A stretch of DNA of 49,912 nucleotides from a virus: positions 1 through 49,912 of IMG/VR virus record IMGVR_UViG_3300020060_000012; one strand, given 5' to 3'. Positions 983 to 18,513 of the stretch are shown here, one piece after another. A program made the translations under genes and the position numbers. Below the pieces are notes generated by a model. The model did no database searches. It was not told the DNA's origin and worked only from the letters and a program-made list of their open reading frames with translations. How positions within the stretch are numbered: position 1 is the stretch's first letter; each line of letters starts with the position of its first letter.

Positions 983-1011
983 ACGATAGAACACCATGAC
1001 GCCCCTGTCAA
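983..1011 (-). promoter_or_regulatory. Dyad operator A with overlapping sigma-70-like promoter
   Basis: On the reverse strand TTGACAGGGGCGTCA (1011-997) is a TGACR/YGTCA dyad. Its first six bases form a perfect -35 hexamer, followed after 17 bases by TATCGT (988-983) as -10. It lies just upstream of the leftward gene starting at 950. It is one of about ten related dyads in front of leftward operons in this window. Confidence 0.6.
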
Positions 1012-1115
1012 CTCGCGAGCCCAACCTATGATTAAATACGTCCCTGGCCTATTGTATATAGCGGGCTCTTTGTGCTTCATCGTCGGTACTCTCTTTGGGA
1101 TGGTACTTACCCGCA

Positions 1116-2837
1116 ATGCTTCGTGATTTCCAATTTGACCTAAAGGCCGATATATACCGGGCCTGGCATGAGGGTGCGCGCGTGGTCATGCCGGTCATGG
1201 CCACGGGTGGTGGCAAGACTGTTGTGTTTAGCGATATTGTGCGCGAGATGGACCAACCGGCCTGCCTCATATCGCACCGCCAAGAATTAGTCGGCCAAGC
1301 GGCGCTGGCCCTCAACCGTGAAGAAGTACAACATGGCATCATTGCCCCCGCGCAGATTCAGAAGCAAATTATTCAGCTAGAAATGGAGATGCACGGCCGC
1401 AGCTTCTACAGCCCGCGCGCTCCGGTGCGTGTGGCCGGTGTCGATACGCTGCTGAATCATGACACCACTGACCGCTGGCTACAGCAGGTTGCGGTGGTGG
1501 TGCAGGATGAAGGCCACCACGTTTTGAAGGATAACAAGTGGGGCACAGCCATGGGTATGTTCCAACCCAACGTGCGTGGCCTATTCCCCACGGCGCATTG
1601 CTACCGCGCGGACGGCAAGGGCTTAGGCCGTGACTCAGATGGCCTAGTGGACCGGCTGGTGTTGGGGCCGCACGGGCGCGAGCTAATAAGCCGCGGATTC
1701 TTATGTGACTATCGGCTGGTAGCGCCCGAAGACACCACAGACATGAGTGACGTTCATGTCACCGGTACAGGCGAGTATAGCCCCGTTGGTCTGCGCAAGG
1801 CCATCCACCGCAACAAGTCTATTGTGGGTGACGTGGTGGGGCACTATATGCGCTTCGCCGCGGGCAAACTCGGCATTACCTTTGCCGTGGACATCGAGGC
1901 AGCCACGGAGATTGCAGCGGGATACAGAGCGCAGGGCATCCCCGCGGAAATCATCACCGCCAAAACTCCACTATTCGTGCGCGGCCAGCTTATGCGCCAG
2001 TTCCGTGCGCGGCAGATACTTCAACTGGTTTCCGTCGATGTGTTGGGTGAAGGCGTAGACGTGCCCGCTGTCGAAGTCATCAGCATGGCCCGCCACACTG
2101 CGAGCTTCCAACTGTACGCGCAGCAGTTCGGCCGCGGCCTGCGTATCATGGTCACGGATCAACAGAACAAAGAGTGGGGCGGCTACACTGACCAGCAGCG
2201 GTTGGCGCTCATTGCAGCCAGCGTGAAGCCCACGGCCATCATCATTGACCACGTGAACAACTACCGGCGCCACGGGCTGCCCGACGTGGAGCAAAGCTAC
2301 AAGCTGACCCGACGCGAGCGCCGCAACCGCGGAACCATGGACGATGCCATACCGCTGCGTCCATGCCTCAATGAAGCCTGCCCCTCGTTCCTGAAGCCAT
2401 ACCAGGTGGTGCTGCCGGGCTGTCCGGAGTGCGGCCACAAGCCACCCCCGCAGCGCCGTGGTACACCTGACCAGGTAGAAGGTGATTTGGTGGAGTTGGA
2501 CCCGGCAGCGTTGGCGGCATTGCGCGGGGAGATTGCCCGCATAGATAGCCCGGCTGTCATCCCCTATGGTGCGGACAACGTGGTGGCACAGTCCGTGCGC
2601 AAACGCCACGCAGAGCGGCAAGACGCACAGGCCGCGCTTCGCGCTGCCTGGCAATTGTGGCAGGGCTGGCAGGTACACCAGGGACGGGGCGAGCGCGAAG
2701 GGTATCAAAGGTTTTATTTTAAATTCGGCACCGACGTGGCCACAGCCCACGCGCTAGGTGTGAGAGACGCAGCCGACCTTGAGGCGCGCATCAGGGCTGA
2801 CCTGCTAGCCAATAACATCACGGAGAAAACCGCATGA
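1116..2837 (+). CDS. SF2 DNA helicase (DEAD/DEAH-type) with C-terminal zinc ribbon
   Basis: A superfamily 2 helicase of about 573 residues. Counting from the ATG at 1116, the Walker A motif MATGGGKTVV lies near residue 28, the Walker B/motif II reads VVQDEGHH near residue 130, and the C-terminal RecA-like lobe carries DVLGEGVDVPAVEVISMAR and the motif VI-like QQFGRGLR. A Cys4 zinc ribbon follows (CLNEACPSF, then GCPECGHK), and a helical tail ends the protein. Such enzymes unwind or remodel branched DNA during replication or recombination. The in-frame TTG at 1095 is an alternative start; GGGATGG about 13 bases ahead of 1116 is the only ribosome-binding candidate. It heads the rightward replication operon and overlaps the next gene by ATGA. 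Confidence 0.88.
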   Translation: MLRDFQFDLKADIYRAWHEGARVVMPVMATGGGKTVVFSDIVREMDQPACLISHRQELVGQAALALNREEVQHGIIAPAQIQKQIIQLEMEMHGRSFYSPRAPVRVAGVDTLLNHDTTDRWLQQVAVVVQDEGHHVLKDNKWGTAMGMFQPNVRGLFPTAHCYRADGKGLGRDSDGLVDRLVLGPHGRELISRGFLCDYRLVAPEDTTDMSDVHVTGTGEYSPVGLRKAIHRNKSIVGDVVGHYMRFAAGKLGITFAVDIEAATEIAAGYRAQGIPAEIITAKTPLFVRGQLMRQFRARQILQLVSVDVLGEGVDVPAVEVISMARHTASFQLYAQQFGRGLRIMVTDQQNKEWGGYTDQQRLALIAASVKPTAIIIDHVNNYRRHGLPDVEQSYKLTRRERRNRGTMDDAIPLRPCLNEACPSFLKPYQVVLPGCPECGHKPPPQRRGTPDQVEGDLVELDPAALAALRGEIARIDSPAVIPYGADNVVAQSVRKRHAERQDAQAALRAAWQLWQGWQVHQGRGEREGYQRFYFKFGTDVATAHALGVRDAADLEARIRADLLANNITEKTA

Positions 2838-3055
2838 GCCAATGGGGTATCTTGGTATTTAGCGTAACCGCAGCCTATATGCTAAATGACCACCGGCCAA
2901 AGATGCGCCGATGGGGTCCGGTGTTCGGATTGTTGGGTCAGCCTTTTTGGATGTGGTCAACTTTTGCAGCGCATCAGTGGGGAATATTTGCTATGACCTT
3001 TATCTACACCGGCATGAGTATCCGCGGTTTTTATAACATGTGGCTGCGTAAATGA
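2834..3055 (+). CDS. Small membrane protein
   Basis: 73 residues, starting in the ATGA overlap with the helicase stop. It has two or three hydrophobic stretches (about residues 4-17, 30-45 and 48-62) with aromatic, Trp-rich faces and a basic loop (HRPKMRRWG), suggesting an inner-membrane protein with the basic loop in the cytoplasm. I do not recognise a family. Its place between a helicase and a second small membrane protein, all translationally coupled, suggests it is made early. A role in anchoring replication or altering the host membrane is possible but unproven. Confidence 0.72.
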   Translation: MSQWGILVFSVTAAYMLNDHRPKMRRWGPVFGLLGQPFWMWSTFAAHQWGIFAMTFIYTGMSIRGFYNMWLRK

Positions 3056-3324
3056 GGCAGCTACGCGTATTTGCTTTCTGGTTCGCGGTAGAATTCGCGC
3101 TGTACGGCATGCTAGTGGCCAATGGCCGGGCCTACGTGCAGGGAAACTACATTGGCACCCTTGTCACTGATATGCTTATCAGCGGCTTCAACTTCACCAT
3201 AGGCAAAAAATTCATTGAGAACGCAGACAACCGGAGTTGGCCCGCATTCTTCGGCTGCGTGTTCGGTGGGGGCGCTGGCTCCTGTGTATCTATATTCCTA
3301 ACCAAGATGGTGTACGGACAATGA
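3052..3324 (+). CDS. Small membrane protein, Gly-rich C-terminus
   Basis: 90 residues, coupled by ATGA to the gene before and the gene after. The N-terminus (residues 4-25) is hydrophobic and the C-terminal part (about 60-88) is a Gly/Phe-rich hydrophobic segment; a middle segment around residues 35-50 may also enter the membrane. The motif EFALYGMLVANGRAYVQG looks like one conserved among phage and prophage small membrane proteins, but I cannot name the family. The function is unknown. Organisation argues strongly that it is a real gene. Confidence 0.72.
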   Translation: MRQLRVFAFWFAVEFALYGMLVANGRAYVQGNYIGTLVTDMLISGFNFTIGKKFIENADNRSWPAFFGCVFGGGAGSCVSIFLTKMVYGQ

Positions 3325-3455
3325 AGCGCTACAAAGTCACCGTATCCTTCAACATCGGCAGCGGATTCACCTATTCGCTTATGGCTCCTAGCATCGTCCA
3401 CGCGGCTGCCTTCGTGTGGCACTGGCCCAATGTGCGAGTGGAGCGTTGCTTGTGA
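3321..3455 (+). CDS. Small unrecognised protein (44 aa)
   Basis: A 44-residue frame beginning MKRYKVTVSFNIGSGFTYSL. It starts at the ATG that overlaps the previous stop (ATGA at 3321-3324) and ends in the GTGA that starts the nuclease gene. The unbroken chain of overlapping start and stop codons is the main support. The sequence looks like a small beta-strand protein with a Trp/His-rich end. I recognise no family and assign no function. Confidence 0.65.
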   Translation: MKRYKVTVSFNIGSGFTYSLMAPSIVHAAAFVWHWPNVRVERCL

Positions 3456-3919
3456 CGTTGCTGGAATGGGCAGCCAAGTGGGGTATATCCATCGACGCGC
3501 TGCGCGACCTGGCCACATCCACGGCATACATCCCGCCCACCGTCGATGACGGCAGCGAGTCCCGCCAGCAATCCCTGGTGCGGCTCGAAGCGGCACAACG
3601 GCGCAATGTCTATCTGTTCCGCAATAACGTTGGCGCCTGCACCACCGACACAGGCAGCTTCGTGCGGTATGGCCTGGCCAATGACACGCCCGCCATGAAC
3701 GCTGCTGTGAAAAGCGCGGACCTAATCGGCTTCCGTTCGAAGCTAATAGTGGCCGCGGATGTCGGCACCGTGCTGGCGCAGTTCATAAGCCGCGAAGTCA
3801 AGCACGCCACGTGGCACTGGCGGAACACGCCCGAAGAACAAGCGCAACTGAAGTGGGCTGCGCTCATTAACACACACGGGGGCGATGCTGCAATAGTCAC
3901 CGGGCCCGGAAGTCTGTAG
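3452..3919 (+). CDS. VRR-NUC domain nuclease
   Basis: 155 residues, read from a GTG at 3452 that overlaps the TGA of the preceding small gene. The second half matches the VRR-NUC fold of the PD-(D/E)xK superfamily: YLFRNNVGA, then SADLIGF with the catalytic Asp, ISREVKH supplying the Glu-x-Lys pair, and a following QAQLKWAALI helix and GGDAAIV strand. Members are Holliday-junction or flap nucleases, often next to phage helicases and primases. The N-terminal 40 residues are helical and probably a specificity segment. The gene belongs to the replication operon, so a role in processing branched replication intermediates is likely. The exact DNA structure cut cannot be read from sequence. Confidence 0.87.
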   Translation: MTLLEWAAKWGISIDALRDLATSTAYIPPTVDDGSESRQQSLVRLEAAQRRNVYLFRNNVGACTTDTGSFVRYGLANDTPAMNAAVKSADLIGFRSKLIVAADVGTVLAQFISREVKHATWHWRNTPEEQAQLKWAALINTHGGDAAIVTGPGSL

Positions 3920-3922
3920 CCA

Positions 3923-3937
3923 TGACGGCAGCGTCAA
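3923..3937. promoter_or_regulatory. Variant dyad upstream of the TetR-like gene
   Basis: TGACGGCAGCGTCAA is a TGACG/CGTCA dyad with a 4-base centre, lying 35 bases before the TTG start of the HTH gene and between two genes of the rightward operon. It resembles the dyads in front of leftward operons but has CG in place of CAC at the inner half-site positions. TATCTT follows at 3941-3946. It could serve autoregulation; this is inference. Confidence 0.4.
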
Positions 3938-3971
3938 TGGTATCTTAATCAACCAACCGGAGAATCCTACC

Positions 3972-4253
3972 TTGTATAAAGCTAAAATCCTGGCCGCAGC
4001 GGTCAAACTGTCTGAAACACTCGGATACCAAAACGTACTCAAGCGCCACATTGCGGCCAAACTGAAGATTGGCATGGGCACAGTCAACAGCAATTGGGGC
4101 ACCATGAAGGAATTGCGCAAGGCGGTGGTCCTAGAAGCCATCCGCACCGGCAACAACGTCATCATCTCGCAAGCCCTGGTGGCCGGTGATTTGACTGCCC
4201 GCCGATTGGAACAGAAGCGACGCGCGGAAGCCCTGGCCAGCCTAGCGGCTTAA
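3972..4253 (+). CDS. TetR-like helix-turn-helix DNA-binding protein
   Basis: 93 residues starting at TTG 3972; the start is decided by GGAGAA at about 3959-3964, eight bases upstream. Residues 5-50 resemble the N-terminal domain of TetR-family regulators: ILAAAVKLSETLGYQNV as the first helix, then the HTH HIAAKLKIGMGTVNSNWGTM and KELRKAVV. The C-terminal ligand-binding domain of full TetR proteins (about 200 aa) is missing; only a helical tail rich in Arg/Lys/Ala follows. It is therefore probably a compact DNA-binding factor without ligand control. It sits between nuclease and primase genes and has a variant of the phage-wide dyad just upstream, making it the best candidate here for the dyad-binding regulator. 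Confidence 0.78.
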   Translation: MYKAKILAAAVKLSETLGYQNVLKRHIAAKLKIGMGTVNSNWGTMKELRKAVVLEAIRTGNNVIISQALVAGDLTARRLEQKRRAEALASLAA

Positions 4254-6731: not shown

Positions 6732-6886
6732 CGGATGACGTGGCGCCAGCCTTGGACAAGGATGGTGCCGGGCGCCGCGTGGCGGCTGTTATAGGCAGCC
6801 ACGATGTCATCCACTGCGGTCTTGTCGCCAGCCCTAAGCCGGGCCAACAACTCTTCGATTTTCGCAGTCAATGCCTTGGTGTCCAT
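6728..6886 (-). CDS. Small unrecognised protein (52 aa)
   Basis: A leftward frame reading MDTKALTAKIEELLARLRAG, then DKTAVDDIVAAYNSRHAAPGTILVQGWRHVIR. The first half is an amphipathic helix. The frame continues upstream to a GTG at 6967, but the protein-like part starts at ATG 6886. It overlaps the 3' end of the upstream membrane-protein gene by 53 bases in another frame, which lowers confidence. Its stop codon is the reverse reading of the CTAG that also ends the primase gene. No function assigned. Confidence 0.5.
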   Translation of the reverse strand: MDTKALTAKIEELLARLRAGDKTAVDDIVAAYNSRHAAPGTILVQGWRHVIR

Positions 6887-7061
6887 GGACCACATCTTGG
6901 CGGGTGTCGGGGCTTTGGTCCGTGAGCGGTCGCACATCAGTGTGGTCCAAACCGGGGATGGCGTCACGGTCTAAGTGTTTGCGCCAGATGTGTATGCCGC
7001 GCAGGATGGCAGCAATCAGGAATATGTAAGCGAGGGCGAATAGCAGCAGAGTGGTGGGCAA
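6834..7061 (-). CDS. Small membrane protein, single N-terminal TM segment
   Basis: 75 residues from TTG 7061, chosen because GGGGAC lies six bases upstream on the reverse strand. Residues 3-22 (TTLLLFALAYIFLIAAILRG) form one clear transmembrane helix followed by a basic stretch (HIWRKHLDR), so the C-terminal 50 residues probably face the cytoplasm. That tail is polar with no recognised fold. The gene has its own dyad/promoter at 7112-7126 upstream and ends a leftward transcription block that runs into the primase gene from the other side. Function unknown. Confidence 0.6.
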   Translation of the reverse strand: MPTTLLLFALAYIFLIAAILRGIHIWRKHLDRDAIPGLDHTDVRPLTDQSPDTRQDVVHGHQGIDCENRRVVGPA

Positions 7062-7096
7062 GGTAGTCCCCTGTCAAGTGTGATGGATGTCTCATA

Positions 7097-7126
7097 ACCA
7101 TACACCACACCTGACAGGGGTGTCAA
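7097..7126 (-). promoter_or_regulatory. Dyad operator B with promoter
   Basis: On the reverse strand TTGACACCCCTGTCA (7126-7112) combines a dyad (TGACA/TGTCA) with a perfect -35; TATGGT (7102-7097) follows at 18 bases. A further half-site CCCCTGTCAAG occurs at 7068-7078. It precedes the leftward membrane-protein gene at 7061. Confidence 0.6.
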
Positions 7127-7139
7127 CTCTCAAGCCGGT

Positions 7140-7385
7140 CTATCCGTCGTCATTGGCCAGTTGGTCCCGCCACAGCCAAGTCACGGCTCTTTGTAAACAT
7201 CCAAGCTCCATGGCGCTGCTGTCGGCTGCGGCCTGCGCATCGGCGCTGGTGGCTGCCATGCTTTCCAGCTTGTCATGTTCATCCTTGAGAGACAGCAAGT
7301 GATGCCGGGCCGCGCGCAGTAAACAAGCACGCTCCGTGTTCCCCAAGCGCCCGTGGAGCGGCGGGTGTGTGTTGCCCGGGCTCAT
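7140..7385 (-). CDS. Small helical unrecognised protein (81 aa)
   Basis: A leftward 81-residue protein that starts in the ATGA overlap with the gene at 7382-8086. After a Pro/Gly/His-rich N-terminus, residues about 20-70 are strongly helical and heptad-like (LLRAARHHLLSLKDEHDKL), suggesting a small coiled coil. No family is recognised. It is probably expressed together with its upstream partner from the dyad promoter at 8134-8149, and the two may interact; that is inference from coupling only. Confidence 0.65.
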   Translation of the reverse strand: MSPGNTHPPLHGRLGNTERACLLRAARHHLLSLKDEHDKLESMAATSADAQAAADSSAMELGCLQRAVTWLWRDQLANDDG

Positions 7386-8086
7386 GCGTGCGCCCTCCCT
7401 GACGGGGCAGGCTGGCGGGTATGCGCAGGGCGTGCCCGTACCATCTGCGTGATGGTTCCCGCGTCGGGCTTGTCCAACCCATCCAAGATGCCCTGCAATC
7501 GCTGCATGGCGTCTTCAATGGTGGTGCGCGCTTCGTCGGGGTCAAGGTCTGCTATCTCACGCTCCACGCGCTTGAGGGCAGACTGTATGGCTTCCGCTGC
7601 CGCGTTGTGTTCGGGCTCCTGTGCCTTGGCCCACGCGCGCAGTTGAGACTTGCCCACCGTGGTCACATCGAGGCCACGCACGTCACCCCCGGAACGTATG
7701 AACATTTGCAGGGTGCTGGCGCTGGAACGTGCGAACGCGGCCCGGCTGTTGCGCACCGCCGCGCGAGCGCGGCGGGTGTCTACCTCCAACCCGTCTTCGT
7801 CCACCACTTCCGGTGTGGTGATGCCCTTGAGTACGAAGGCATACAAACGCGTATGGACTTCGGCCAGGTACTTACTGTGGTTCTCACTGTCGGCCACGCT
7901 GATTTTGCGGCGCCCCTTCACACCGTTGAAGCGTGCTTTGACGGCCTGCACCAAGATGCGCAGGTAACTAACATCATAGCGCTTGGCCGCGTCGGTGTTG
8001 GCCAGGTGAGCGGATGCCAGTAGTTCCACATCATGGTCGGTGGCTACGTAGTTCTTCGATTCCAACTTGTCTTCAATCTTGTTCAT
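7382..8086 (-). CDS. Unrecognised helical protein (234 aa)
   Basis: A leftward soluble protein of 234 residues, the first gene behind the dyad at 8134-8149. The start is supported by AGGAG eight bases before the ATG on the reverse strand. The sequence is acidic to neutral and mostly helical; residues about 150-205 (AAAEAIQSALKRVEREIADLDPDEARTTI and on) look like an extended helical bundle. A basic patch (FNGVKGRRKISV) is near residue 55, and the C-terminus is Pro/Arg-rich. There are no enzyme motifs I can name. It is coupled by ATGA to the next leftward small gene. Confidence 0.75.
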   Translation of the reverse strand: MNKIEDKLESKNYVATDHDVELLASAHLANTDAAKRYDVSYLRILVQAVKARFNGVKGRRKISVADSENHSKYLAEVHTRLYAFVLKGITTPEVVDEDGLEVDTRRARAAVRNSRAAFARSSASTLQMFIRSGGDVRGLDVTTVGKSQLRAWAKAQEPEHNAAAEAIQSALKRVEREIADLDPDEARTTIEDAMQRLQGILDGLDKPDAGTITQMVRARPAHTRQPAPSGRAHA

Positions 8087-8133
8087 GCTATGTACTCCTG
8101 TGTGAATGTGTAATTAATCATCGCAGGTGTAGG

Positions 8134-8149
8134 TTGACACGCGTGTCAA
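8134..8149. promoter_or_regulatory. Dyad operator C, perfect 16-bp palindrome
   Basis: TTGACACGCGTGTCAA is a perfect palindrome and the best copy of the dyad family. It lies about 48 bases ahead of the leftward gene at 8086. A -35 (TTGACA) is present in both orientations, but no convincing -10 at the expected distance. Confidence 0.65.
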
Positions 8150-8374: not shown

Positions 8375-8405
8375 GGTCATATCTCCTGGTTAACGTGGTG
8401 CCATC

Positions 8406-8421
8406 TTGACACCAGTGTCAC
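8406..8421. promoter_or_regulatory. Dyad operator D
   Basis: TTGACACCAGTGTCAC contains perfect 6-base half-sites TGACAC/GTGTCA around CA. It stands between the gene ending at 8441 and the micro-peptide gene starting at 8374. GTGACG recurs 17 bases further right, as near several other copies. Confidence 0.6.
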
Positions 8422-8440
8422 CCGCTGTATGCGATTCGCG

Positions 8441-8878
8441 TCACAGTTCTGATATGCGCTTGCGCAGGGCTTCCAATTCCGTGCGGGCTTCGTCGTGCTG
8501 CTGCTTCCAATAGTTGGACACGTTGGTCTTATCCTGCCGCTGCTGTTCCAACTCTATGATGCGTTCGCGCTGTTTAACCACACGGGCTGCCAGCATCGGG
8601 CCAGTCTCATACGCAGGGCCGGTGCTCAACTCGACGCGGTATGTCTGCACGTGCGCGGCACGGCGCTCCAACTCTTTGATATGTTCCAGCGTGGACACAC
8701 CCACAGTGCGGCTTTCCATGGCCTCACTGTCAGCAGCATTGAGCGCTTCGCATACGTCGGTGGCGCTCTTCCACGTGTCCACCATGCCCATGTGCTTGGC
8801 GTCTTGTCCCTTGGCCACGCAACTATCGAACAGCACCCAACCCGCGTTGGCGTACAGGGCATAATACCGGTTGCTCAT
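8441..8878 (-). CDS. Unrecognised protein with C-terminal coiled coil
   Basis: 145 residues. The N-terminal 55 residues form a small mixed domain (MSNRYYALYANAGWVLFDSC and on). The C-terminal 60 residues are a heptad-type coiled coil (RVVKQRERIIELEQQRQDK, then QHDEARTELEALRKRI). It is coupled by ATGA to the upstream zinc-ribbon gene and is the last large gene before dyad D. Coiled-coil tail proteins of this size are common in phage accessory regions and often dimerise. I cannot name a family or function. Confidence 0.72.
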   Translation of the reverse strand: MSNRYYALYANAGWVLFDSCVAKGQDAKHMGMVDTWKSATDVCEALNAADSEAMESRTVGVSTLEHIKELERRAAHVQTYRVELSTGPAYETGPMLAARVVKQRERIIELEQQRQDKTNVSNYWKQQHDEARTELEALRKRISEL

Positions 8879-10187: not shown

Positions 10188-10435
10188 GGTGCACCCCATG
10201 GCATCCAATCAGGCAGCGGATGCGGTTGGAACAGTGCCACCTTCTTCGGGTCGCATGTAAAACCAAACGGGATGGCCTGCGCAGTATCGTGGGCGTATCC
10301 CACGACGCACTGGCGCCCGCCGTCCAACACCACATTCTCGAAGGTAACTATGGGTTTATGGGGCTCTACCGGCACACACCCGGCACAGGCGTGGAGCATG
10401 AGGCCCACCAGCATCCAAGCGATTATGCAGCGCAT
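10184..10435 (-). CDS. Small predicted lipoprotein or secreted protein (83 aa)
   Basis: 83 residues with a short basic start and a hydrophobic core (IIAWMLVGLMLHACAGC). Either LHAC or CAGC may act as lipobox; LHAC fits better. The mature part (PVEPHKPIVTFENVVLDGGRQ and on) has two more Cys and is beta-rich, which suits a folded periplasmic domain with a disulphide. It overlaps its upstream neighbour by 13 bases and couples to the next lipoprotein gene. Two tandem lipoproteins in a leftward operon outside the lysis cassette are notable. No family recognised. Confidence 0.68.
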   Translation of the reverse strand: MRCIIAWMLVGLMLHACAGCVPVEPHKPIVTFENVVLDGGRQCVVGYAHDTAQAIPFGFTCDPKKVALFQPHPLPDWMPWGAP

Positions 10436-10638
10436 GTGGCCCCCACATCGGCTTCGGAATACAGCACCACCAGTTCAAACTTCTGTTCTAGCCGGGTGCG
10501 CTGCGCGTTCGCCTTATCGCACGCGAGCGCTGCGGCTTCGGGTGTTTTCCAGCGTGCCGCCTGTGTGGGGCAGCGGGTCAGCGTTGATGCGAGCTTAGGC
10601 GCGTACATCAAGCCATTGGGCAGTACGAGTGCAAACAT
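10423..10638 (-). CDS. Small unrecognised protein (71 aa)
   Basis: First gene of the leftward operon behind dyad E (10697-10711). The 71-residue sequence begins MFALVLPNGLMYAPKLASTL and has a helical Arg/Lys-rich middle (TPEAAALACDKANAQRTRLEQKF) and beta-like end. There are three Cys but no recognisable metal motif. The pattern of an N-terminal strand pair followed by one long helix resembles small phage accessory proteins that bind host factors, but this is only an impression. No function assigned. Confidence 0.62.
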   Translation of the reverse strand: MFALVLPNGLMYAPKLASTLTRCPTQAARWKTPEAAALACDKANAQRTRLEQKFELVVLYSEADVGATCAA

Positions 10639-10696
10639 ATGGTGCCTGCGAGCTACACCGGGAAACCCCCGGCAGTACGCGCATCCTGGCAGGACA

Positions 10697-10711
10697 TGAC
10701 ACGGCTGTCAA
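10697..10711. promoter_or_regulatory. Dyad operator E
   Basis: TGACACGGCTGTCAA. On the reverse strand it supplies TTGACA as -35 with CAGGAT 17 bases later, a weak -10. It lies 59 bases ahead of the leftward gene starting at 10638. GTGACA recurs 8 bases to its right. Confidence 0.55.
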
Positions 10712-11055: not shown

Positions 11056-11424
11056 CTACGCCTTGTATTCTCGGATGGGGCGATTGTGTTCTACGGCCCA
11101 AGTCAATGGATTGCCGTGCAACGCGACGGGCCAACCCTTGGACTTATCGAACTGCACTAGACAGGCATGCAAGTAGCGGTCTAACTCTTCCTTGTCTTCT
11201 ATAGTGACATTGACGGGTATCAGCGTATACAACGTGTAGCGTTGCACCACTTGGGCTTGGAGCGCATCTAGCGCCTTGGCGGTGTGGCCGGGTCGCAAGC
11301 ACTCGATACAACCCCCGGTGCTGGTGTAGCGTTGGGCGTGGTGGCCATACTTGCAAGGCTTACCGGTGCTGTAGAACATTTGGCCGGTTTCGCGGGCGGT
11401 GATTCTGAGTAACATTTGGTTCAT
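11056..11424 (-). CDS. Zinc-binding phage protein (CxxGH...CxxC)
   Basis: 122 residues starting MNQMLLRITARETGQMFYST. Residues about 22-45 read GKPCKYGHHAQRYTSTGGCI and ECLR, a CxxGH-x13-CxxC zinc motif. This motif is familiar from the N-terminal zinc domain of phage proteins and some HNH/homing-type endonucleases. The remainder contains no HNH catalytic signature that I can see; it is a helical region (HTAKALDALQAQVVQRYTL) followed by mixed alpha/beta. It may be a standalone DNA-binding relative of those nucleases. The gene is transcribed leftward from the AT-rich island at 11441-11530, divergent from the small terminase gene. Confidence 0.7.
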   Translation of the reverse strand: MNQMLLRITARETGQMFYSTGKPCKYGHHAQRYTSTGGCIECLRPGHTAKALDALQAQVVQRYTLYTLIPVNVTIEDKEELDRYLHACLVQFDKSKGWPVALHGNPLTWAVEHNRPIREYKA

Positions 11425-11440
11425 AGCGGGGGCTCTCCAT

Positions 11441-11530
11441 AATTAAAAGGTATTATTTAGATTGCAAGTTGCAAGATACACCATCTAATACAATATATAC
11501 AATACCTTTTATTAACAGACAGTTCTAAAT
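11441..11530. promoter_or_regulatory. AT-rich divergent control region with inverted repeat
   Basis: A sharply AT-rich island between divergent genes. AAAAGGTATT (11445-11454) and AATACCTTTT (11501-11510) form a 10-bp inverted repeat about 46 bases apart. Within it are two TTGCAA words (11463-11468, 11470-11475) and -10-like TACAAT and TATATA words. It probably carries promoters for the zinc-protein gene leftward, and perhaps an operator or melting site. Confidence 0.55.
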
Positions 11531-11571
11531 ACGTGAGAGATGTAGCCCCAATTCGAGGCATTCAAGGGGGC

Positions 11572-11599: not shown

Positions 11600-11607
11600 G
11601 TGGACAT

Positions 11608-12402: not shown

Positions 12403-12435
12403 GATGGTCACGGCGCGTTACACATGGCGCTAGCT

Positions 12436-12497: not shown

Positions 12498-12500
12498 GCT

Positions 12501-13014: not shown

Positions 13015-13289
13015 AGGTGCTTACTCCCGTCGTTGATGAAGTCAATGAACGCCTGTTGCCAGGGCTTCGGTGTGTACTCCGGGCGCCGCTCGCCCACGGT
13101 GTGAGGGCGCCGACGTTCACGGCCCGGTACGTCGTGCCCGTTCCTGAAGGCCGTGTGTAGGCCGTAGGCTTGAGCCATGCGCTTGCGCCGGTCATCCACC
13201 GGCATGCGCTGCGTATCCTCCAACACGTCGGGCAGCACCCGCACTCGCGCAGTGTCGCTCAACATGCGGTTGGCGTCGGACTCGCTCAT
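13011..13289 (-). CDS. Unrecognised basic protein (92 aa)
   Basis: 92 residues, charged throughout, with an Arg-rich centre (MPVDDRRKRMAQAYGLHTAF, GRERRRPHTVGERRPEY) and a C-terminal amphipathic helix (KPWQQAFIDFINDGSKHL). No membrane segment or Cys pair is present. It is coupled by ATGA overlaps to the genes on both sides. The basic character suggests nucleic-acid binding. I do not recognise it and assign no function. Confidence 0.65.
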   Translation of the reverse strand: MSESDANRMLSDTARVRVLPDVLEDTQRMPVDDRRKRMAQAYGLHTAFRNGHDVPGRERRRPHTVGERRPEYTPKPWQQAFIDFINDGSKHL

Positions 13290-13570
13290 GACTGCGGCGG
13301 CTCCATGTTGCTCGCGATGGTGGCCCGTGCTTCGGGCGACAGCGCCGCGAACACCGGGTGTGTGGGGATGGCTGCGGCCAATTCGGCCTTGCGTGCCTTC
13401 TCGGCAGCCTTGGCGGCTACGTCGGCAGCATGAGCCAGGCGCAGCGGTAGGCGACGGTCAGCGCGGTTTGGTCCCTGTACGTGTACGTGCAACGCTCGCT
13501 TATGGGCGCGGTTGCGCCACAGGTTGCCCGCGCGCTTGCTGTGCTGGTTGGCTTTGTGTACTTGAGTCAT
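13286..13570 (-). CDS. Unrecognised His/Arg-rich protein (about 94 aa)
   Basis: First gene of the leftward operon behind dyad F. Two in-frame ATGs exist, at 13576 and 13570; AGGAG ends three bases before the first but nine before the second, so 13570 is preferred (start MTQVHKANQHSKRAGNLWRN). The N-terminal half is very basic and His-rich; the second half is an Ala/Lys helix (HAADVAAKAAEKARKAELAA) with a Pro-rich end. It could bind nucleic acid, but there is no recognised motif. Confidence 0.62.
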   Translation of the reverse strand: MTQVHKANQHSKRAGNLWRNRAHKRALHVHVQGPNRADRRLPLRLAHAADVAAKAAEKARKAELAAAIPTHPVFAALSPEARATIASNMEPPQS

Positions 13571-13576
13571 TGTCAT

Positions 13577-13804
13577 CTACTCCTGGTTGCCCCGGTATGG
13601 GGTGCGTGTATCTTGGGTGACGCCCGTGTCACTTGGCGTGATGGGCGTCACACTTCTAGCGCGTCGTGCACGGGCAGCGCTGCCGTACCCGGACATCCAC
13701 GCCCTGACTAGCGCGGCCTTGATGTCGGACGGGCTCAAGGTGAGGTAATTGCGTTGGGCGTAGGCGTTGGCCCGGCGCTTAGGTCCTGCATCGCGGCGGC
13801 TCAT
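13577..13804 (-). CDS. Unrecognised basic protein ending in the dyad F region (75 aa)
   Basis: 75 residues from ATG 13804, which overlaps the TGA of the upstream 44-residue gene. The first 50 residues are basic and protein-like (MSRRDAGPKRRANAYAQRNY, LSPSDIKAALVRAWMSGYG). The last 25 codons run through dyad F and the ribosome-binding site of the next gene, so this end is constrained by regulation as well as coding. The stop TAG abuts the next ATG. The gene is probably real, but its C-terminus may be unconserved. Confidence 0.55.
   Translation of the reverse strand: MSRRDAGPKRRANAYAQRNYLTLSPSDIKAALVRAWMSGYGSAARARRARSVTPITPSDTGVTQDTRTPYRGNQE
13617..13632. promoter_or_regulatory. Dyad operator F
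   Basis: GTGACGCCCGTGTCAC, inside the 3' end of the gene at 13577-13804 and 41 bases or more before the leftward gene at 13570. It is flanked by the shared word TATCTTGGG on its left and by a second half-site pair, TGATGGGCGTCACA (13640-13653). Confidence 0.55.
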
Positions 13805-13935: not shown

Positions 13936-14153
13936 GTCTTCAGCATCCAAGCGAACTTGGCCCATGCGGGGTCATTCTCGATACGCCAGCGCAACTGGTG
14001 GCGGCGTAGGTAGGCCAGCGGCACGAAGAGCCCTAGCGTGTGCAGGCAGGTGCGGCAGTTTACGTGGCCCACATCGAATTCAGCATAGTTGACCGTCAGC
14101 GGGCGCCCGCATGCCGTCTGCCGTGTCCCCTCACTGCGCCAGTGGACGGCCAT
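13932..14153 (-). CDS. Small protein with Cys/His residues (73 aa)
   Basis: From ATG 14153 the frame gives MAVHWRSEGTRQTACGRPLT, then VNYAEFDVGHVNCRTCLHTLG and a helical basic C-terminus. The ACGRPL...HVNCRTC pattern is a plausible single zinc site of the kind found in small phage proteins that read like MHWR...TACGR...VTCxxC. The start lies one base after the preceding TGA. The stop is coupled by ATGA to the next gene. Likely a nucleic-acid or protein binder; no family name can be given. Confidence 0.65.
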   Translation of the reverse strand: MAVHWRSEGTRQTACGRPLTVNYAEFDVGHVNCRTCLHTLGLFVPLAYLRRHQLRWRIENDPAWAKFAWMLKT

Positions 14154-14154
14154 G

Positions 14155-14406
14155 TCACAGCCTCCCCACGTGCTCTGCGAGCGCCGCAAAGCCCCGCTGT
14201 TGCCACACGCTGCCCTGGTCGGTGCAATCGGCGCCCACTAGCAGTTCATAGCCTAGCGTGTACGTGCGGAAGCTGTGCCCGTAGTTGATGCAGTATCGAG
14301 CCCACGCGCTGTTGGTGCTGCCGATGGGCGCCACCGATTTGCCGCGCGCCCTGGTGACCCGCAGCCCGTGTGTCAGCCGGTTGATGATGCTGGTGACGGT
14401 GCTCAT
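14155..14406 (-). CDS. Unrecognised protein (83 aa)
   Basis: 83 residues from ATG 14406, which overlaps the TGA of the upstream gene. The sequence MSTVTSIINRLTHGLRVTRA starts with a helix, then GKSVAPIGSTNSAWARYCINYG and a beta-rich segment ending WQQRGFAALAEHVGRL. No membrane segment or metal cluster. Its place in the tightly coupled leftward chain is the main support. Function unknown. Confidence 0.63.
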   Translation of the reverse strand: MSTVTSIINRLTHGLRVTRARGKSVAPIGSTNSAWARYCINYGHSFRTYTLGYELLVGADCTDQGSVWQQRGFAALAEHVGRL

Positions 14407-14780
14407 ATGCCACCGTAGCTGCCGCCTAAGCCAGGGCATTCATCGCTGCTGCAACGCCCTTGAGCGCGTAGAGCCCGCCCACATGCCAAGCAGCTACCGT
14501 GCGGGCGCCGCGTGTCAGCAGCCAGGGCCGGTATCGTGAGCACTTCGCCCTTACCATCATCGGTTGACATGATGCTGAAGCCAGCATGCACGGTGCCGTC
14601 CACACCCACCGCCTTGGCCAAGCGCCGTTTATGCCACCTGTCCATCGAGCGTGCCCCGGCTTGGTAGGCTTGCTCAAGGTAGTCTTGGGCGCCCTCATGC
14701 GTCCAATTGCGCACCGTGCGCCGGTTGGCTATGAGTTGCGCGGCGAACTGTTGCGCCCGCTTAATCATCAGTTTATTCAT
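14403..14780 (-). CDS. Unrecognised protein with C-terminal Cys cluster (125 aa)
   Basis: 125 residues. The N-terminal 60 residues are helical and basic (MNKLMIKRAQQFAAQLIANR, WHKRRLAKAVGVDG). A short beta segment follows. The C-terminus holds CLACGRALRAQGRCSSDECPG, four Cys that could bind one zinc ion. Coupled to both neighbours by ATGA. The helical basic part plus zinc end would suit a DNA-binding accessory factor; no known family is identified. Confidence 0.66.
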   Translation of the reverse strand: MNKLMIKRAQQFAAQLIANRRTVRNWTHEGAQDYLEQAYQAGARSMDRWHKRRLAKAVGVDGTVHAGFSIMSTDDGKGEVLTIPALAADTRRPHGSCLACGRALRAQGRCSSDECPGLGGSYGGI

Positions 14781-15073
14781 GTTGCGTTATCTCCTGTGTC
14801 AGTCAAAATATCTGCGTATCGCAGCAGGCCGCGCACCCCGATGGAGCCGCCAACGATGTCTTCCCACTCGATGCGCTTGCCATCATCAATGGAATGCACG
14901 CGCCCAATCCACTGGTGCCCGTAGGCGCCTGGCCCGCGCGGCTTGTAGGGAATGCGGATACGTTTGCCGGTGCGCATCGACACCATGTAGAGCCGGTCAC
15001 CCACACAGACCATCTGTGACCAGCCGCCCCACGTGCTAGGGCGTCGCTGGCCAATCAGGGTGTAGGTGTTCAC
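14777..15073 (-). CDS. Unrecognised beta-rich protein (98 aa)
   Basis: 98 residues rich in Trp, Gly and Tyr, MNTYTLIGQRRPSTWGGWSQ then DRLYMVSMRTGKRIRIPYKP. The predicted pattern is an all-beta small domain followed by a short helix (RGLLRYADILTDTGD). It couples to the large zinc/OB-like protein upstream (15070-15073) and to the gene downstream. I cannot place it in a family. Confidence 0.66.
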   Translation of the reverse strand: MNTYTLIGQRRPSTWGGWSQMVCVGDRLYMVSMRTGKRIRIPYKPRGPGAYGHQWIGRVHSIDDGKRIEWEDIVGGSIGVRGLLRYADILTDTGDNAT

Positions 15074-16062
15074 GCTGCAATCTCCTGTTGTGTGACGATG
15101 GCAGCCTTGGTGGGCCGCTTGAAGAAACCAAACTTGCTATCCTTATCGCTCACCGTGACACGCGCGTCAAGTTGCACCGTCACACCCTTCAGGTCGGCTG
15201 CCGCTTGCTCCATGCTGCGGTACTTAATGGGCGCGGTGTCATCCGGTGCGCGCTCCAAGTAGCCCACAGCACCATACAACTCGCGAGGCGCAGAGCCCCA
15301 CACCTTCCAACCTTCGGCCGTCTCTATGACAATCTTGATGGACTCCGGGCGCGGGAAGCTCTGCCCGTCCACCCATCCACCTTGGTCATACTTGGCGCTG
15401 ATAACGATACCTGCAATGGTGATGCGCTTGTCAGTGACCGGCACCGGCTTGCGCGCTGCGTCGCGGGCTTCACGTTCGGCTTCGAGATTGGGACGGTCTG
15501 CAATCTGCTTCAGGAGTTTGTGGGCGAATGCCTGTTGCTTCTCGCTCAACTCGCTGCCCCACCCAATGACCTTGCTGCACATGTCGCGCAACGTGACTTC
15601 GGGGAATTCTATGGAGCGGTTGGCCTTGTCCAAGTACATATCGAGCATGGCCAGCAGGCCCACTGTGGTCAGGTAGGCACGGGCCTTGGCCACGCGCTCC
15701 TGGTGCTTCTTCCATGTGTTTACCTGGTCGCGGAATCGCTTAAACGCCACCGGGTCACCCATGCGCAGCTTGCCAGCGCACGTATTGCCCACGCTGATAT
15801 AGGTGTTGGTGACAGCCGTGTGGAACGTTGCACCGTAGAGATACCGGGCGCCGCAGCAATCGCAGATGCCGGGCCACTTGTGACCCGCCACCGTGAAGCC
15901 GGGGTGCGCTTCCTGGTGCGCCAACAGGTTTTCGTGTTCGTCGGCCATCTCATTGCACAGCGCTTCCCATGCCTCTTCTGAGTGGCCAAGGTAGTGTTGG
16001 GACACGAACGTGAATTCAGCAGCGTTGATGACCGATGGGCGGAAGCCGTCTTTGCGTGCCAT
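15070..16062 (-). CDS. Phage protein with Cys cluster and OB-like C-terminal domain (330 aa)
   Basis: The largest leftward protein in this block, 330 residues. Residues about 66-95 hold CDCCGARYLYG...VGNTCAGKL, a CxxC-x-Cys zinc-type cluster. The middle is helical (about 115-200). The C-terminal third is beta-rich: KRITIAGIVISAKYDQGGW, EGWKVWGSAPRELYG, LKGVTVQLDARVTVSDKD, SKFGFFKRPTKA. The combination of zinc site plus a barrel-like domain ending in a FGFFKRP-type motif recalls proteins seen in many unrelated phages that may bind single-stranded nucleic acid. This is an impression, not an identification. The coding sequence contains a dyad-like site at 15155-15170. Confidence 0.72.
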   Translation of the reverse strand: MARKDGFRPSVINAAEFTFVSQHYLGHSEEAWEALCNEMADEHENLLAHQEAHPGFTVAGHKWPGICDCCGARYLYGATFHTAVTNTYISVGNTCAGKLRMGDPVAFKRFRDQVNTWKKHQERVAKARAYLTTVGLLAMLDMYLDKANRSIEFPEVTLRDMCSKVIGWGSELSEKQQAFAHKLLKQIADRPNLEAEREARDAARKPVPVTDKRITIAGIVISAKYDQGGWVDGQSFPRPESIKIVIETAEGWKVWGSAPRELYGAVGYLERAPDDTAPIKYRSMEQAAADLKGVTVQLDARVTVSDKDSKFGFFKRPTKAAIVTQQEIAA

Positions 16063-16065
16063 GTG

Positions 16066-16275
16066 CTAGTACTCTTCCGCCCACACGCGGCCTTCCGAGT
16101 CTTTCCAGATGGCGACGCACTTGCAGTCCCACGGCTCGCTGCCCTCGAAGGGCTTGTAATACTGGCCGGGCGTGGTGTCGGCAATCAGCAGGTATCCGTC
16201 AGCGGCATACGCGTCAATGCACTGCTGCAACGCGTTGTCTTGCGGGGTGTCTAAACCTTGAAACTCTTTTGCCAT
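16066..16275 (-). CDS. Small acidic protein (69 aa)
   Basis: From ATG 16275, selected because AGGGAG ends nine bases upstream. The sequence MAKEFQGLDTPQDNALQQCI then DAYAADGYLLIADTTPGQYY, PWDCKCVAIWKDSEGRVWAEEY has a helix followed by a beta hairpin pattern and a CKC pair. It is the first gene after dyad G and stops three bases before the ATG of the next gene. Function unknown. Confidence 0.66.
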   Translation of the reverse strand: MAKEFQGLDTPQDNALQQCIDAYAADGYLLIADTTPGQYYKPFEGSEPWDCKCVAIWKDSEGRVWAEEY

Positions 16276-16311
16276 CTCTGCGTACTCCCTGGTTGGTGAG
16301 CACATCTTGGA

Positions 16312-16326
16312 TGACAAGCGTGTCAA
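16312..16326. promoter_or_regulatory. Dyad operator G
   Basis: TGACAAGCGTGTCAA; on the reverse strand TTGACACGCTTGTCA followed by TCCAAGATG, a tail shared with copy I. It stands 37 bases ahead of the leftward start at 16275. Confidence 0.6.
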
Positions 16327-16341
16327 CTGCTGTGATCTACG

Positions 16342-16566
16342 TCACGTTTTAGCGTATCGGCTGCGCGTCCTGTCGAATTCGACCCACCCGCGGCGCTGGT
16401 ACTCCGGGGGCGTCTCCATGACGCGCTGTAAGCGCTGCTGCGCGGCGATGTCCGGGGGCGCGCCCATCCACTCGAAGGCGTAGTGGCGCTCCCACATGGC
16501 ATCGAGCGGCAGCCCTGTGCGGGGCTGGTTGAGCCCCCGGTGTAGGTCTGTCCACCCACCGCGCAT
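16342..16566 (-). CDS. Unrecognised protein (74 aa)
   Basis: From ATG 16566, which shares a base with the TGA of the preceding gene (TGATG). The frame reads MRGGWTDLHRGLNQPRTGLP then LDAMWERHYAFEWMGAPPDI and a helical C-terminus with Arg/Tyr. Three frames are open here; I chose this one because of the overlapping start and the balanced composition. Function unknown. Confidence 0.6.
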   Translation of the reverse strand: MRGGWTDLHRGLNQPRTGLPLDAMWERHYAFEWMGAPPDIAAQQRLQRVMETPPEYQRRGWVEFDRTRSRYAKT

Positions 16567-16730
16567 CACGCCACCTTGGCCCGCGGGATGTATGCCCGGC
16601 CGCCCTTGAAGGCCGCCCACGCCAGCTGTGTGGTGGCGCTGATGTAGGCGCCCTTGGTGTCCGTGTCCATGATGGTGTTGTCATAGGTGCCGGTGAACCA
16701 GCGTTCAAAGGCGCGTTGTAGTTCGCTCAT
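16566..16730 (-). CDS. Small helical protein (54 aa)
   Basis: 54 residues starting MSELQRAFERWFTGTYDNTI at ATG 16730, in the ATGA overlap with the preceding gene. The remainder is MDTDTKGAYISATTQLAWAA then FKGGRAYIPRAKVA. Proteins beginning with this kind of FExWF...AWxAF pattern are frequent among small phage orphans. The frame is open for 22 more codons upstream, but the overlap fixes the start. Function unknown. Confidence 0.66.
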   Translation of the reverse strand: MSELQRAFERWFTGTYDNTIMDTDTKGAYISATTQLAWAAFKGGRAYIPRAKVA

Positions 16731-16867
16731 GATGGCCACCCCATATTGCAAGGCCACATCGGCTGTGTGTCTCTGTAAGCCGTGTCCCAAACCCAATCCG
16801 GCACGATGTCCCCTATCACCATTTTACGCGGGGGCGTCGATACGTAGCCGCATGTGCAGCGGGTCAT
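16727..16867 (-). CDS. Small protein with CxC motif (46 aa)
   Basis: 46 residues from ATG 16867, overlapping the previous TGA. The sequence MTRCTCGYVSTPPRKMVIGD continues IVPDWVWDTAYRDTQPMWPCNMGWPS. Three Cys and a Trp-rich end suggest a compact, perhaps metal-stabilised peptide. Coupled on both sides by ATGA. Function unknown. Confidence 0.58.
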   Translation of the reverse strand: MTRCTCGYVSTPPRKMVIGDIVPDWVWDTAYRDTQPMWPCNMGWPS

Positions 16868-17037
16868 AGTTGCCACACTGCTGGCAGCACGGCCGCAGGG
16901 TTGAACGGATACCCGGCCGCGCGCTCCGCCTGCCAAGTCATGATGGCCCGCACGTCATCGCCCGTGTAGTCGCGTCGGGCTTCAGCGTGGGTGGACGCCA
17001 GTAGCCACTGCGTCAAGATGTGTTCGGCTTGATTCAT
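16864..17037 (-). CDS. Small helical protein (57 aa)
   Basis: 57 residues, MNQAEHILTQWLLASTHAEA then RRDYTGDDVRAIMTWQAERA and a Pro-rich end. Two predicted helices. The start ATG 17037 overlaps the TGA of the preceding gene; the stop overlaps the next start. No motif or family recognised. Confidence 0.62.
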   Translation of the reverse strand: MNQAEHILTQWLLASTHAEARRDYTGDDVRAIMTWQAERAAGYPFNPAAVLPAVWQL

Positions 17038-17414
17038 AGGGCATCCCACGTGCCGTTCGGTCGGTACAGAACGCAGGGCAACTCAGACTTGGTGGCAGCG
17101 TCGATGGCTGCCGCTTCTGTCTCGAATGCTTGGAACGCGCCCGTATCTTGTGTGAACACGTATTGCACCCACGGCTTGCCGCCCTTCTTCGCGGCAGCCA
17201 ATGCGCGCTTGACTATGCGGTCATCAGCAATGCCGCGGTTGTTATGCTGCGTGCGCGCCACCAGCTTGACGGTGCCGCGCTTGTCCGGGTCCGGTAGAAA
17301 GTAGCCCACATGCACCTGGCCGTTGGCCTCCTGCACGCGGTAGCGCAGCATCGGGGTGGCGGCTGATATCGCCGCGGGCTGGTTGATGGGGATGGGGTTG
17401 TTGGTGTCAGTCAT
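17034..17414 (-). CDS. Unrecognised soluble protein (126 aa)
   Basis: 126 residues with a disordered Pro/Ala-rich first 22 residues and a following alpha/beta domain (MLRYRVQEANGQVHVGYFLP, RGTVKLVARTQHNNRGI, ADDRIVKRALAAAKKGGKPW). The C-terminus is a separate strand-helix-strand element. Coupled by ATGA to both neighbours. Nothing catalytic is evident. Confidence 0.66.
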   Translation of the reverse strand: MTDTNNPIPINQPAAISAATPMLRYRVQEANGQVHVGYFLPDPDKRGTVKLVARTQHNNRGIADDRIVKRALAAAKKGGKPWVQYVFTQDTGAFQAFETEAAAIDAATKSELPCVLYRPNGTWDAL

Positions 17415-17965
17415 GTGGCCGGTGTCTCCATTAGTCTCAGAATTCGTTTACGCTTGGCGTTTAGCTTGCGCAAGGCCGTGGCCGCGCGCTTCGCTTTGGT
17501 CTGCCACCGTTTGATGGCCGCGTCAGTCTTGGCCAACTTGACGCTGTTGTCAACCTTACTGCGTCCCACTTTAGGCTTGGGCTGCATCCGCTCAATCAGG
17601 TTGTGTTTGACCACATAATGGGCCATCTGTGTTTCAAGCTGCGCGTGGCCACCGTCGTGGGGCCGGGCTGACGGGTGGCGCTTTCTGAATACGTAGTGGC
17701 TGGCATCGTGGATTAGCCGCCCCCATCCCTTGTGGTGGCTGCTGGTGGGCGTACTCGATGCCCACACCTGCCGCCCGCGGCTGCGGTAGTTGCTCCGTAT
17801 AGGGCGCCCGCCCCGGTTTTCGAGTACGCCCACGGGTATGTCGGCCGTGCCGCCGAAGGCCCGCACCAGGCGCTTGTATGCCTTCAGCGCGTCCACCTTG
17901 GTGATGGGTGGCAGGACTTGGGGCAGCATGAGCGCCACCCCGGTGTAGCGTGGGTCATTGTTCAT
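17411..17965 (-). CDS. Phage protein with HDxSH/HDGGH histidine motifs (184 aa)
   Basis: 184 residues. The central part reads GWGRLIHDASHYVFRKRHPS followed by ARPHDGGHAQLETQMAHYV. Closely spaced His residues of the form HDASH, RPHDGGH and AH give several possible metal ligands. The pattern resembles a motif in other phage hypothetical proteins but lacks a Glu in the HExxH position, so I do not call it a protease. The C-terminal 50 residues are a Lys/Arg-rich helix (IKRWQTKAKRAATALRKLNA), probably nucleic-acid binding. Coupled to neighbours on both sides. Confidence 0.68.
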   Translation of the reverse strand: MNNDPRYTGVALMLPQVLPPITKVDALKAYKRLVRAFGGTADIPVGVLENRGGRPIRSNYRSRGRQVWASSTPTSSHHKGWGRLIHDASHYVFRKRHPSARPHDGGHAQLETQMAHYVVKHNLIERMQPKPKVGRSKVDNSVKLAKTDAAIKRWQTKAKRAATALRKLNAKRKRILRLMETPAT

Positions 17966-18180
17966 GTGCCCACCTTAGCCGCAGCCTCGCGTGCGGCCTT
18001 GCGAGCCGCGCTGGCGTCCATCTTGGCCAGGAGTGCCACACACCGGACACAGCGGCGATGATTGGCCATGCCGTAGGCGCGGAATTCGTCAATCTTGATG
18101 TACATATGCGCAGTCTGGCGTTTACAGGCCACGGCGCCGTTCAGGTTTAAGTGCCAAATCCCTTGATTGTTCGCTGCCAT
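17962..18180 (-). CDS. Small protein with CVRC motif (72 aa)
   Basis: First gene behind dyad H. ATG 18180 is preferred over the in-frame ATG 18186 because AGGGAG ends nine bases before it. The sequence MAANNQGIWHLNLNGAVACK includes HRRCVRCVALLA, and with an earlier Cys and His could form a zinc site. The C-terminal helix is Ala/Arg/Lys-rich. It starts a chain of coupled leftward genes extending to 16342. Function unknown. Confidence 0.64.
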   Translation of the reverse strand: MAANNQGIWHLNLNGAVACKRQTAHMYIKIDEFRAYGMANHRRCVRCVALLAKMDASAARKAAREAAAKVGT

Positions 18181-18218
18181 CTTCATCTACTCCCTGGTGG
18201 TTGGTGTACGTATCTTGG

Positions 18219-18246
18219 ATGATAGCTAGGTTGACAAGCGTGTCAC
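18219..18246 (-). promoter_or_regulatory. Dyad operator H with promoter
   Basis: On the reverse strand GTGACACGCTTGTCAA (18246-18231) supplies GTGACA as -35, and TATCAT (18224-18219) follows at 16 bases as a good -10. This is the clearest case in which the dyad overlaps a promoter. It precedes the gene at 18180. Confidence 0.65.
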
Positions 18247-18249
18247 AGT

Positions 18250-18483
18250 TCACACTTTCGTACACTTGTGAACTTTCCAGCCGTATACCTTGGTGATGGT
18301 CAAGGGGTCATCGCAAGCGCTGCGCTCGCGTTCATCGAACAGCGCGGATTCAAAAGCCGCTGCTACTGTGTGAAACTCTTCACCCCGCACCCGCAGGCCT
18401 TCCACATCGGTGGCCGCGCTGCATGCTGCGGAGTGGCAAGTCTGGCTGCAAGTGTTCGGGTTGAAAACGATTACGTAGCGCAT
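18250..18483 (-). CDS. Small Cys-containing protein (77 aa)
   Basis: 77 residues from ATG 18483, MRYVIVFNPNTCSQTCHSAA then CSAATDVEGLRVRGEEFHTV. Three Cys in a CxxxC-x4-C pattern near the start could form a metal site; the rest is alpha/beta. No ribosome-binding site is visible, and dyad I lies only 16 bases upstream, so translation may begin close to the 5' end of the message. ATG 18492 is in frame as an alternative. Function unknown. Confidence 0.58.
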   Translation of the reverse strand: MRYVIVFNPNTCSQTCHSAACSAATDVEGLRVRGEEFHTVAAAFESALFDERERSACDDPLTITKVYGWKVHKCTKV

Positions 18484-18498
18484 GGGCAGCATCTTGGA

Positions 18499-18513
18499 TG
18501 ACACACGTGTCAA
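18499..18513. promoter_or_regulatory. Dyad operator I
   Basis: TGACACACGTGTCAA; on the reverse strand TTGACACGTGTGTCATCCAA, with the same TCATCCAAGATG tail as copy G. It precedes the leftward gene at 18483. GTGACG recurs 14 bases to its right. Confidence 0.6.

Follow-up and report, generated by a model that had tools for sequence, protein, structure and literature searches.

The record IMGVR_UViG_3300020060_000012 of IMG/VR, analysed over its positions 1 to 49,912 (hereafter the window, 49,912 nucleotides), carries TTGACA-type dyads in front of its leftward operons and a rightward gene at 3972-4253 for a TetR-like protein. Together, the palindromes and the protein have the appearance of a switch for early phage genes that has not been described before. 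Other products match PHROG families for helicase, primase, DNA polymerase, terminase, portal, head protease, tail sheath, tape measure and baseplate genes, and the primase is 40% identical to primases of Klebsiella phages of the Jedunavirus group. The phage is a Jedunavirus-related myovirus of the virulent type. No integrase was found among the proteins scanned, which represent only part of the open reading frames. About 3.5 kb is probably missing from the window, since a relative of 53,260 bp carries additional genes in the interval from the DNA polymerase to gene 153-950. Terminase relatives (a Serratia contig, 45%; a Pseudomonadota bin, 32%) offered too little to name a host.

The dyads are far more frequent than expected by chance. 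With at most three mismatches, TTGACACNNGTGTCAA occurs 24 times in the window, against a mean of 2.2 and a maximum of 6 in 100 shuffles, and with at most two mismatches 12 times against 0.22; the nearest relative holds 21 copies over 22 kb (0.85 expected). An unbiased search of all 6-mer half-sites with spacers of 0-8 ranked TTGACA-N4-TGTCAA first in the window (31 vs 1.8, log10 p = -24.8; shuffled best, -3.6) and second in the nearest relative, beside the overlapping TGACAC-N2-GTGTCA. The core consensus is TTGAC-N6-GTCAA with A or G as base 6. Counted with at most one mismatch, 11 of 25 core sites are intergenic, though intergenic DNA makes up 5.6% of the window (p=3.6e-8), bearing out the expectation that the sites would be enriched at intergenic promoter positions relative to shuffles. 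Dyads within genes likewise exceed expectation (14 vs 2.0, maximum 6, in 200 synonymous-codon shuffles); among the 14 in-gene sites at up to three mismatches, 13617 is actually a promoter site. Nearly all promoter dyads of the window were found again at orthologous promoters of a 75%-identical relative, and several intragenic dyads occupy matching places in relatives. Among orthologous operators, half-site identity is 91%, compared with 56% for the centre and 48% for the flanks, the promoters compared having been chosen for their dyads.

Given the counts, the intergenic bias, the coding excess and the orthologous sites in relatives, the dyad observation holds and is bigger than first described. 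The original prediction, made from the letters of the window, listed ten dyads. All are present, with five starts one base off (true starts 996, 7111, 10696, 16311 and 18498), and the copy at 8134-8149 is indeed a perfect 16-bp palindrome. Nine stand ahead of leftward operons as described, whereas that at 47992 lies between convergent genes. That list did not include the intragenic sites or the dyad at 3922-3937, which stands ahead of the likely regulator gene (Table 1).

The promoter dyads of the window overlap two classes of promoter. In the sigma-70 class (996, 7111 and 10696), the minus-strand TTGACA arm is the -35 element, followed after 17-18 bp by a -10 element. A half-site had been proposed as the -35 at 1.0, 7.1 and 18.2 kb; this applies at the first two but not at 18.2 kb, and the third plain case is the site at 10.7 kb. 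In the CRP-like class (8406, 13617, 16311, 18231 and 18498), there is no -35 element and the -10 element is CAAGAT, which is the tail that several copies had been noticed to share. A site resembling TGTGA-N6-TCACA is centred 29 bp ahead of CAAGAT in these five promoters, i.e., at -41.5 with CAAGAT taken as the -10 hexamer. This is the activator position in class II CRP promoters, so the five have the site at the exact distance together with the poor or absent -35 element of that class. The arrangement GTGA-N32-CAAGAT occurs five times in the window, always at dyads, compared with a mean of 0.13 (maximum 1) across 79 other gaps. The second CRP half-site is good in three promoters and weak at 18231 and 18498.

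In relatives, the distance from the CRP-like site to the -10 element is constant within one base, whereas the dyad shifts; in the L005 and L007 orthologues of 13617, it lies 4 bp closer to the -10 element. Thus, the dyad is a movable part laid over two promoter designs, as expected of an operator. Four of the five CRP-type promoters are followed 22-33 bp downstream by a start codon with a Shine-Dalgarno sequence. At the fifth, 18498 (promoter 18483-18496), an ATG stands 7 bp past the -10 hexamer (6 bp in the L007 orthologue) with no Shine-Dalgarno sequence, and the gene behind it is probably leaderless. The phage contigs hold no Crp-family gene, so the activator would be the host's. From the site and its spacing, the five promoters are probably activated by host CRP. 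A further CRP-like site, TGTGATGGATGTCTCA at 7079-7094, directly follows the 7111 promoter and is conserved in a relative (L005 12341-12356); from its position, it would block rather than activate.

Table 1. Dyads, CRP-like sites and the TetR-like gene of the window; L005, L006 and L007 are relatives.
Feature	Position	Strand	Context	Orthologous site
Putative operator	996-1011	-	TTGACA arm as -35, 17 bp, TATCGT 983-988; gene 153-950	L005 6382
Putative operator	7111-7126	-	TTGACA arm as -35, 18 bp, TATGGT 7097-7102; gene 6834-7061	
Perfect 16-bp palindrome TTGACACGCGTGTCAA	8134-8149	-	Past terminator-like hairpin, ahead of gene 7382-8086	
Putative operator over CRP-type promoter	8406-8421	-	Centre -17.5	L005 12595
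Putative operator	10696-10711	-	TTGACA arm as -35, 17 bp, CAGGAT 10683-10688; gene 10423-10638	L005 15021
Putative operator over CRP-type promoter	13617-13632	-	Centre -21.5; gene 13286-13576	L005 17982, L007 2373
Putative operator over CRP-type promoter	16311-16326	-	Centre -21.5; gene 16066-16275	L005 20896
Putative operator over CRP-type promoter	18231-18246	-	Centre -33.5; gene 17962-18186	L006 9841, L007 6994
Putative operator over CRP-type promoter	18498-18513	-	Centre -21.5; probably leaderless gene 18250-18483	L007 7251
Proposed auto-operator, dyad ATGACGGCAGCGTCAA	3922-3937	+	50 bp ahead of TetR-like start	
TetR-type DNA-binding protein, 93 aa, proposed dyad binder	3972-4253	+	Directly before primase gene	
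CRP-like site TGTGACGCGAATCGCA	8430-8445	-	Centre -41.5 from CAAGAT 8403-8408	
CRP-like site TGTGACGCCCATCACG	13637-13652	-	Centre -41.5 from CAAGAT 13610-13615	
CRP-like site CGTGACGTAGATCACA	16331-16346	-	Centre -41.5 from CAAGAT 16304-16309	
CRP-like half-site TGTGAACTGTGACACG	18239-18254	-	Centre -41.5 from CAAGAT 18212-18217; overlaps dyad	
CRP-like site TGTGACGCAGTTGGCA	18518-18533	-	Centre -41.5 from CAAGAT 18491-18496	
Intragenic dyad	15155-15170		Within gene 15070-16062; orthologous place kept	L005 19680
Intragenic dyad TTGACGCTGTTGTCAA	17538-17553		Within gene 17411-17965; kept	L006 8996
Intragenic dyad	18884-18899		Within large terminase gene; kept	L006 10185
Intragenic dyad	19628-19643		Within large terminase gene; kept	L006 10929
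Dyad	47992-48007		Between convergent genes 47307-47747 (+) and DNA polymerase 48004-49908 (-)	

Several lines of evidence place the product of gene 3972-4253 among TetR-type DNA-binding proteins. It matches phrog_8723 (2e-21), and as a single sequence it reaches Pfam TetR_N at 2.7e-4 with 21.1 bits, below the cut-off of 24. A profile of its family gave 125 matches among PDB sequences, the named ones being TetR-type regulators (best, 4.9e-10). A structure model built from 12 sequences (mean pLDDT 94) has the TetR-type DNA-binding fold with its N-terminal helix-turn-helix; it supersedes an earlier model from two sequences, which had low confidence and no fold match. The best PDB matches of the model are TetR-family regulators with probability 1.00, the E-values being only 0.03 and above because mainly the first ~60 residues correspond; TetR itself (2ns8) aligns with a root-mean-square deviation of 1.3 over 59 columns (probability 1.00, E 0.15). 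The chain stops at residue 93, and three short helices follow the DNA-binding domain. Homologues at the equivalent position are annotated as TetR regulators in JD001, KpV79, KsaM-C1, AAM22, SppYZU01, Scuro and other phages.

The TetR-like gene is itself preceded by a dyad. In almost every carrier of TTGAC-type dyads examined, one stands 48-69 bp before the gene: in the window, in L005, and in JD001, KpV79, PEAT2, KsaM-C1, AAM22, MSW-3, Scuro and CP-T1. Eight metagenomic contigs have it at -58 to -60, and in a ninth, L080, a weaker dyad lies at -90. By comparison, in four carrier genomes just 9-18% of genes have one within 80 bp. Autoregulation would account most simply for a dyad at this place.

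Dyads and the TetR-like gene also go together across phages. We compared 25 phage records, 16 with the gene and 9 without, using the reversed pattern as control. The carriers hold 242 dyads against 36 control matches and the non-carriers 25 against 23 (Mann-Whitney p=6e-5, uncorrected for ancestry). TTGAC pairs in carriers peak at spacer 6, with no like peak elsewhere; the spacer-6 counts are 25 vs 2.4 in the window, 15 vs 2.5 in JD001, 21 vs 2.6 in PEAT2, 20 vs 2.9 in KsaM-C1, 13 vs 2.0 in MSW-3 and 13 vs 3.3 in CP-T1. Sashavirus, M6 and Loki have no spacer-6 TTGAC peak. The literal motif TTGACACNNGTGTCAA is not enriched in distant phages, and the dyad emerged there only with a variable half-site. 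A de novo search of intergenic DNA alone ranked the dyad first or close to first in JD001, AAM22 and MSW-3, where the dyads again hold the -35 element, 17 bp from TATCTT or TATAGT. Half of the KpV79 dyads (7 of 14) overlap a promoter that the depositors had annotated (p=2e-10). By these sequence comparisons, the palindromes and the TetR-like protein recur together in a group of phages with contractile tails, among them JD001 of Klebsiella and CP-T1 of Vibrio. The proposed operator network over early leftward promoters is thus well supported, recurring in related phages that have the TetR-like gene, although the account in which a half-site serves as the -35 covers only three sites.

A possible variant operator, TCGAC-N6-GTCGA, shows spacer-6 peaks in Shewanella phage SppYZU01 (L040), PD0307, Vibrio phage 367.14 (L045) and Alteromonas phage R9Y2 (L046). 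These dyads were left out of the support because they had no intergenic preference in the three of these phages tested, so coding bias remains possible.

The dyads are probably the operators of an autoregulated TetR-like repressor, the product of gene 3972-4253, that shuts off early promoters. From the dyads, the promoter geometry, the conservation and the association with the gene, all read directly from the sequences, we infer that the protein binds the dyads, represses from them and times the passage from early to late transcription. During early infection, the leftward operons would be served by the sigma-70 RNA polymerase of the host, with one operator arm as the -35 element at some promoters; five others have no -35 element, and there the CRP-like site at -41.5 would be the point of activation, with host CRP as the probable activator. 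The TetR-like protein would build up with the replication genes, expressed from its own operator-controlled promoter, and would then fill the dyads, covering either the -35 element or the DNA that separates the activator site from the -10 element. Occupied dyads would close the early promoters and the TetR-like gene's own promoter together, giving a negative-feedback switch. The sites within genes may be extra binding sites, as roadblocks or depots, which is the least certain step of this explanation.

The direction is taken to be repression because the dyads cover the -35 element and the spacer. Some TetR-family proteins are activators, including LuxR of Vibrio, which is one of the fold matches, and a dyad promoter of KpV79 stands before a baseplate gene. 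The TetR-like protein might accordingly activate, or both activate and repress, for example to switch on middle genes, but we consider this improbable, since the dyads cover the -35 or spacer of promoters that already have good elements, an arrangement typical of repression, and the gene's own promoter is covered too. Still harder to sustain is the idea that the dyads are merely strong -35 elements, palindromic by chance and serving no regulator. TTGACA is the sigma-70 -35 consensus and several arms act in that position; however, the second arm is conserved as well as the first, spacer 6 is unique, intragenic copies are enriched and five promoter dyads lie off the -35 position.

More weight belongs to the question of which protein binds. 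The co-occurrence is confounded with common ancestry, and many leftward genes have no recognisable family, so that another phage regulator or a host protein might occupy the operators while the TetR-like gene is merely co-inherited. We regard this as unlikely. In lineage after lineage, this very TetR-like gene has a dyad at a constant position ahead of it, and the hosts span Klebsiella, Edwardsiella, Pantoea, Acinetobacter and Vibrio, a diversity that makes a single host protein an unlikely binder. The 234-aa product of gene 7382-8086, behind the perfect palindrome, was considered as the regulator and rejected: it has no family and no relative was found, and the gene is absent from the 75%-identical relative, in which the dyads persist.

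Several observations weigh against an autoregulated TetR-like repressor. All the evidence is comparative, and the lineages are not independent; the association is partly shared ancestry, the carriers representing perhaps six independent lineages. Shewanella phage SFCi1 has only 3 dyads in spite of carrying the TetR-like gene, and Rhizobium phage RHph_Y52 lacks the gene yet has 12 (control 6). The distant homologues in PD0307 and R9Y2 are without a clear auto-operator. Inspection of the promoters showed no clear -10 element at dyad 8134. Additionally, the usual C-terminal ligand-binding and dimerisation domain of the TetR family is absent from the protein.

Comparable dispersed operators are known from other phages. 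In phiC31, conserved inverted repeats are operators overlapping many early promoters; unlike the window phage, phiC31 is a temperate actinophage with a different repressor family. In L5-type stoperator systems, repressor bound between promoters halts elongation. The likeness to L5 in the original prediction holds in principle: in both phages, one short site for a repressor, a predicted one here, is repeated many times over the genome, at early promoters and in other places. The immunity repressor of L5 (Cluster A) is a monomeric two-domain protein, and the 13-mers that it binds are asymmetric and point in the direction of transcription (PMC9283540). In contrast, the window sites are symmetric 16-bp dyads, not asymmetric 13-bp sites oriented with transcription, with a likely TetR-type binder in virulent-type myoviruses. 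The SPbeta element SPBRE is a dispersed 15-bp promoter-region element under one master repressor, MrpR, and was known in silico decades before its binder (PMC10516654). The window phage resembles it in its dispersed promoter-region element and single predicted repressor, but MrpR resembles tyrosine recombinases and belongs to a temperate phage that integrates. With TetR, AcrR and other members of the TetR family, the window protein shares the DNA-binding domain and, as predicted here, palindromic operators over promoters and autoregulation; it differs in its size of ~93 residues, with no ligand-binding or dimerisation domain of the usual size.

The tetR genes of such phages have been noted before. 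Comeau et al. 2012 listed them for phiPLPE, CP-T1 and 138; as to their role, the authors offered osmotic stress as a guess, and the paper never uses the words promoter, operator or palindrome (PMC3391216). Our search, which covered phiPLPE and CP-T1, found both genes homologous to that of the window. No publication describing these operators was found in the open-access literature, the part of the literature that was searched. Our analysis proposes a likely function and target sites for a TetR-like gene left unexplained in many phage annotations, those of Klebsiella phages included, and predicts the controlled promoters base by base. It also points to a link, in one lineage, between the early phage genes and a CRP-type activator of the host. 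CP-T1 is temperate yet without known lysogeny genes, a puzzle stated in 2012 (PMC3391216), and the proposed TetR-like repressor is a concrete candidate for this temperateness. A broader generalization is tentative and, in our judgement, rather doubtful: an undescribed system throughout the small-myovirus group, in which a minimal TetR-type repressor governs a dispersed operator regulon and may keep some members, such as the temperate CP-T1, quiet, the window lineage being wired also to host cAMP-CRP so that its early genes answer to host nutrition.

KpV79 (L056), a phage without an obvious classical repressor, has two genes annotated as anti-repressor Ant at 18272-20027, which could act against the TetR-like protein. 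In the window, an AT-rich stretch at 11430-11533, upstream of gene 11056-11424, contains the inverted repeat AAAAGGTATT / AATACCTTTT and no dyad; it is possibly an origin or a separate control region. The protein encoded at 22197-22694, between the portal and head genes, matches a PHROG family labelled cysteine dioxygenase (1.4e-25).

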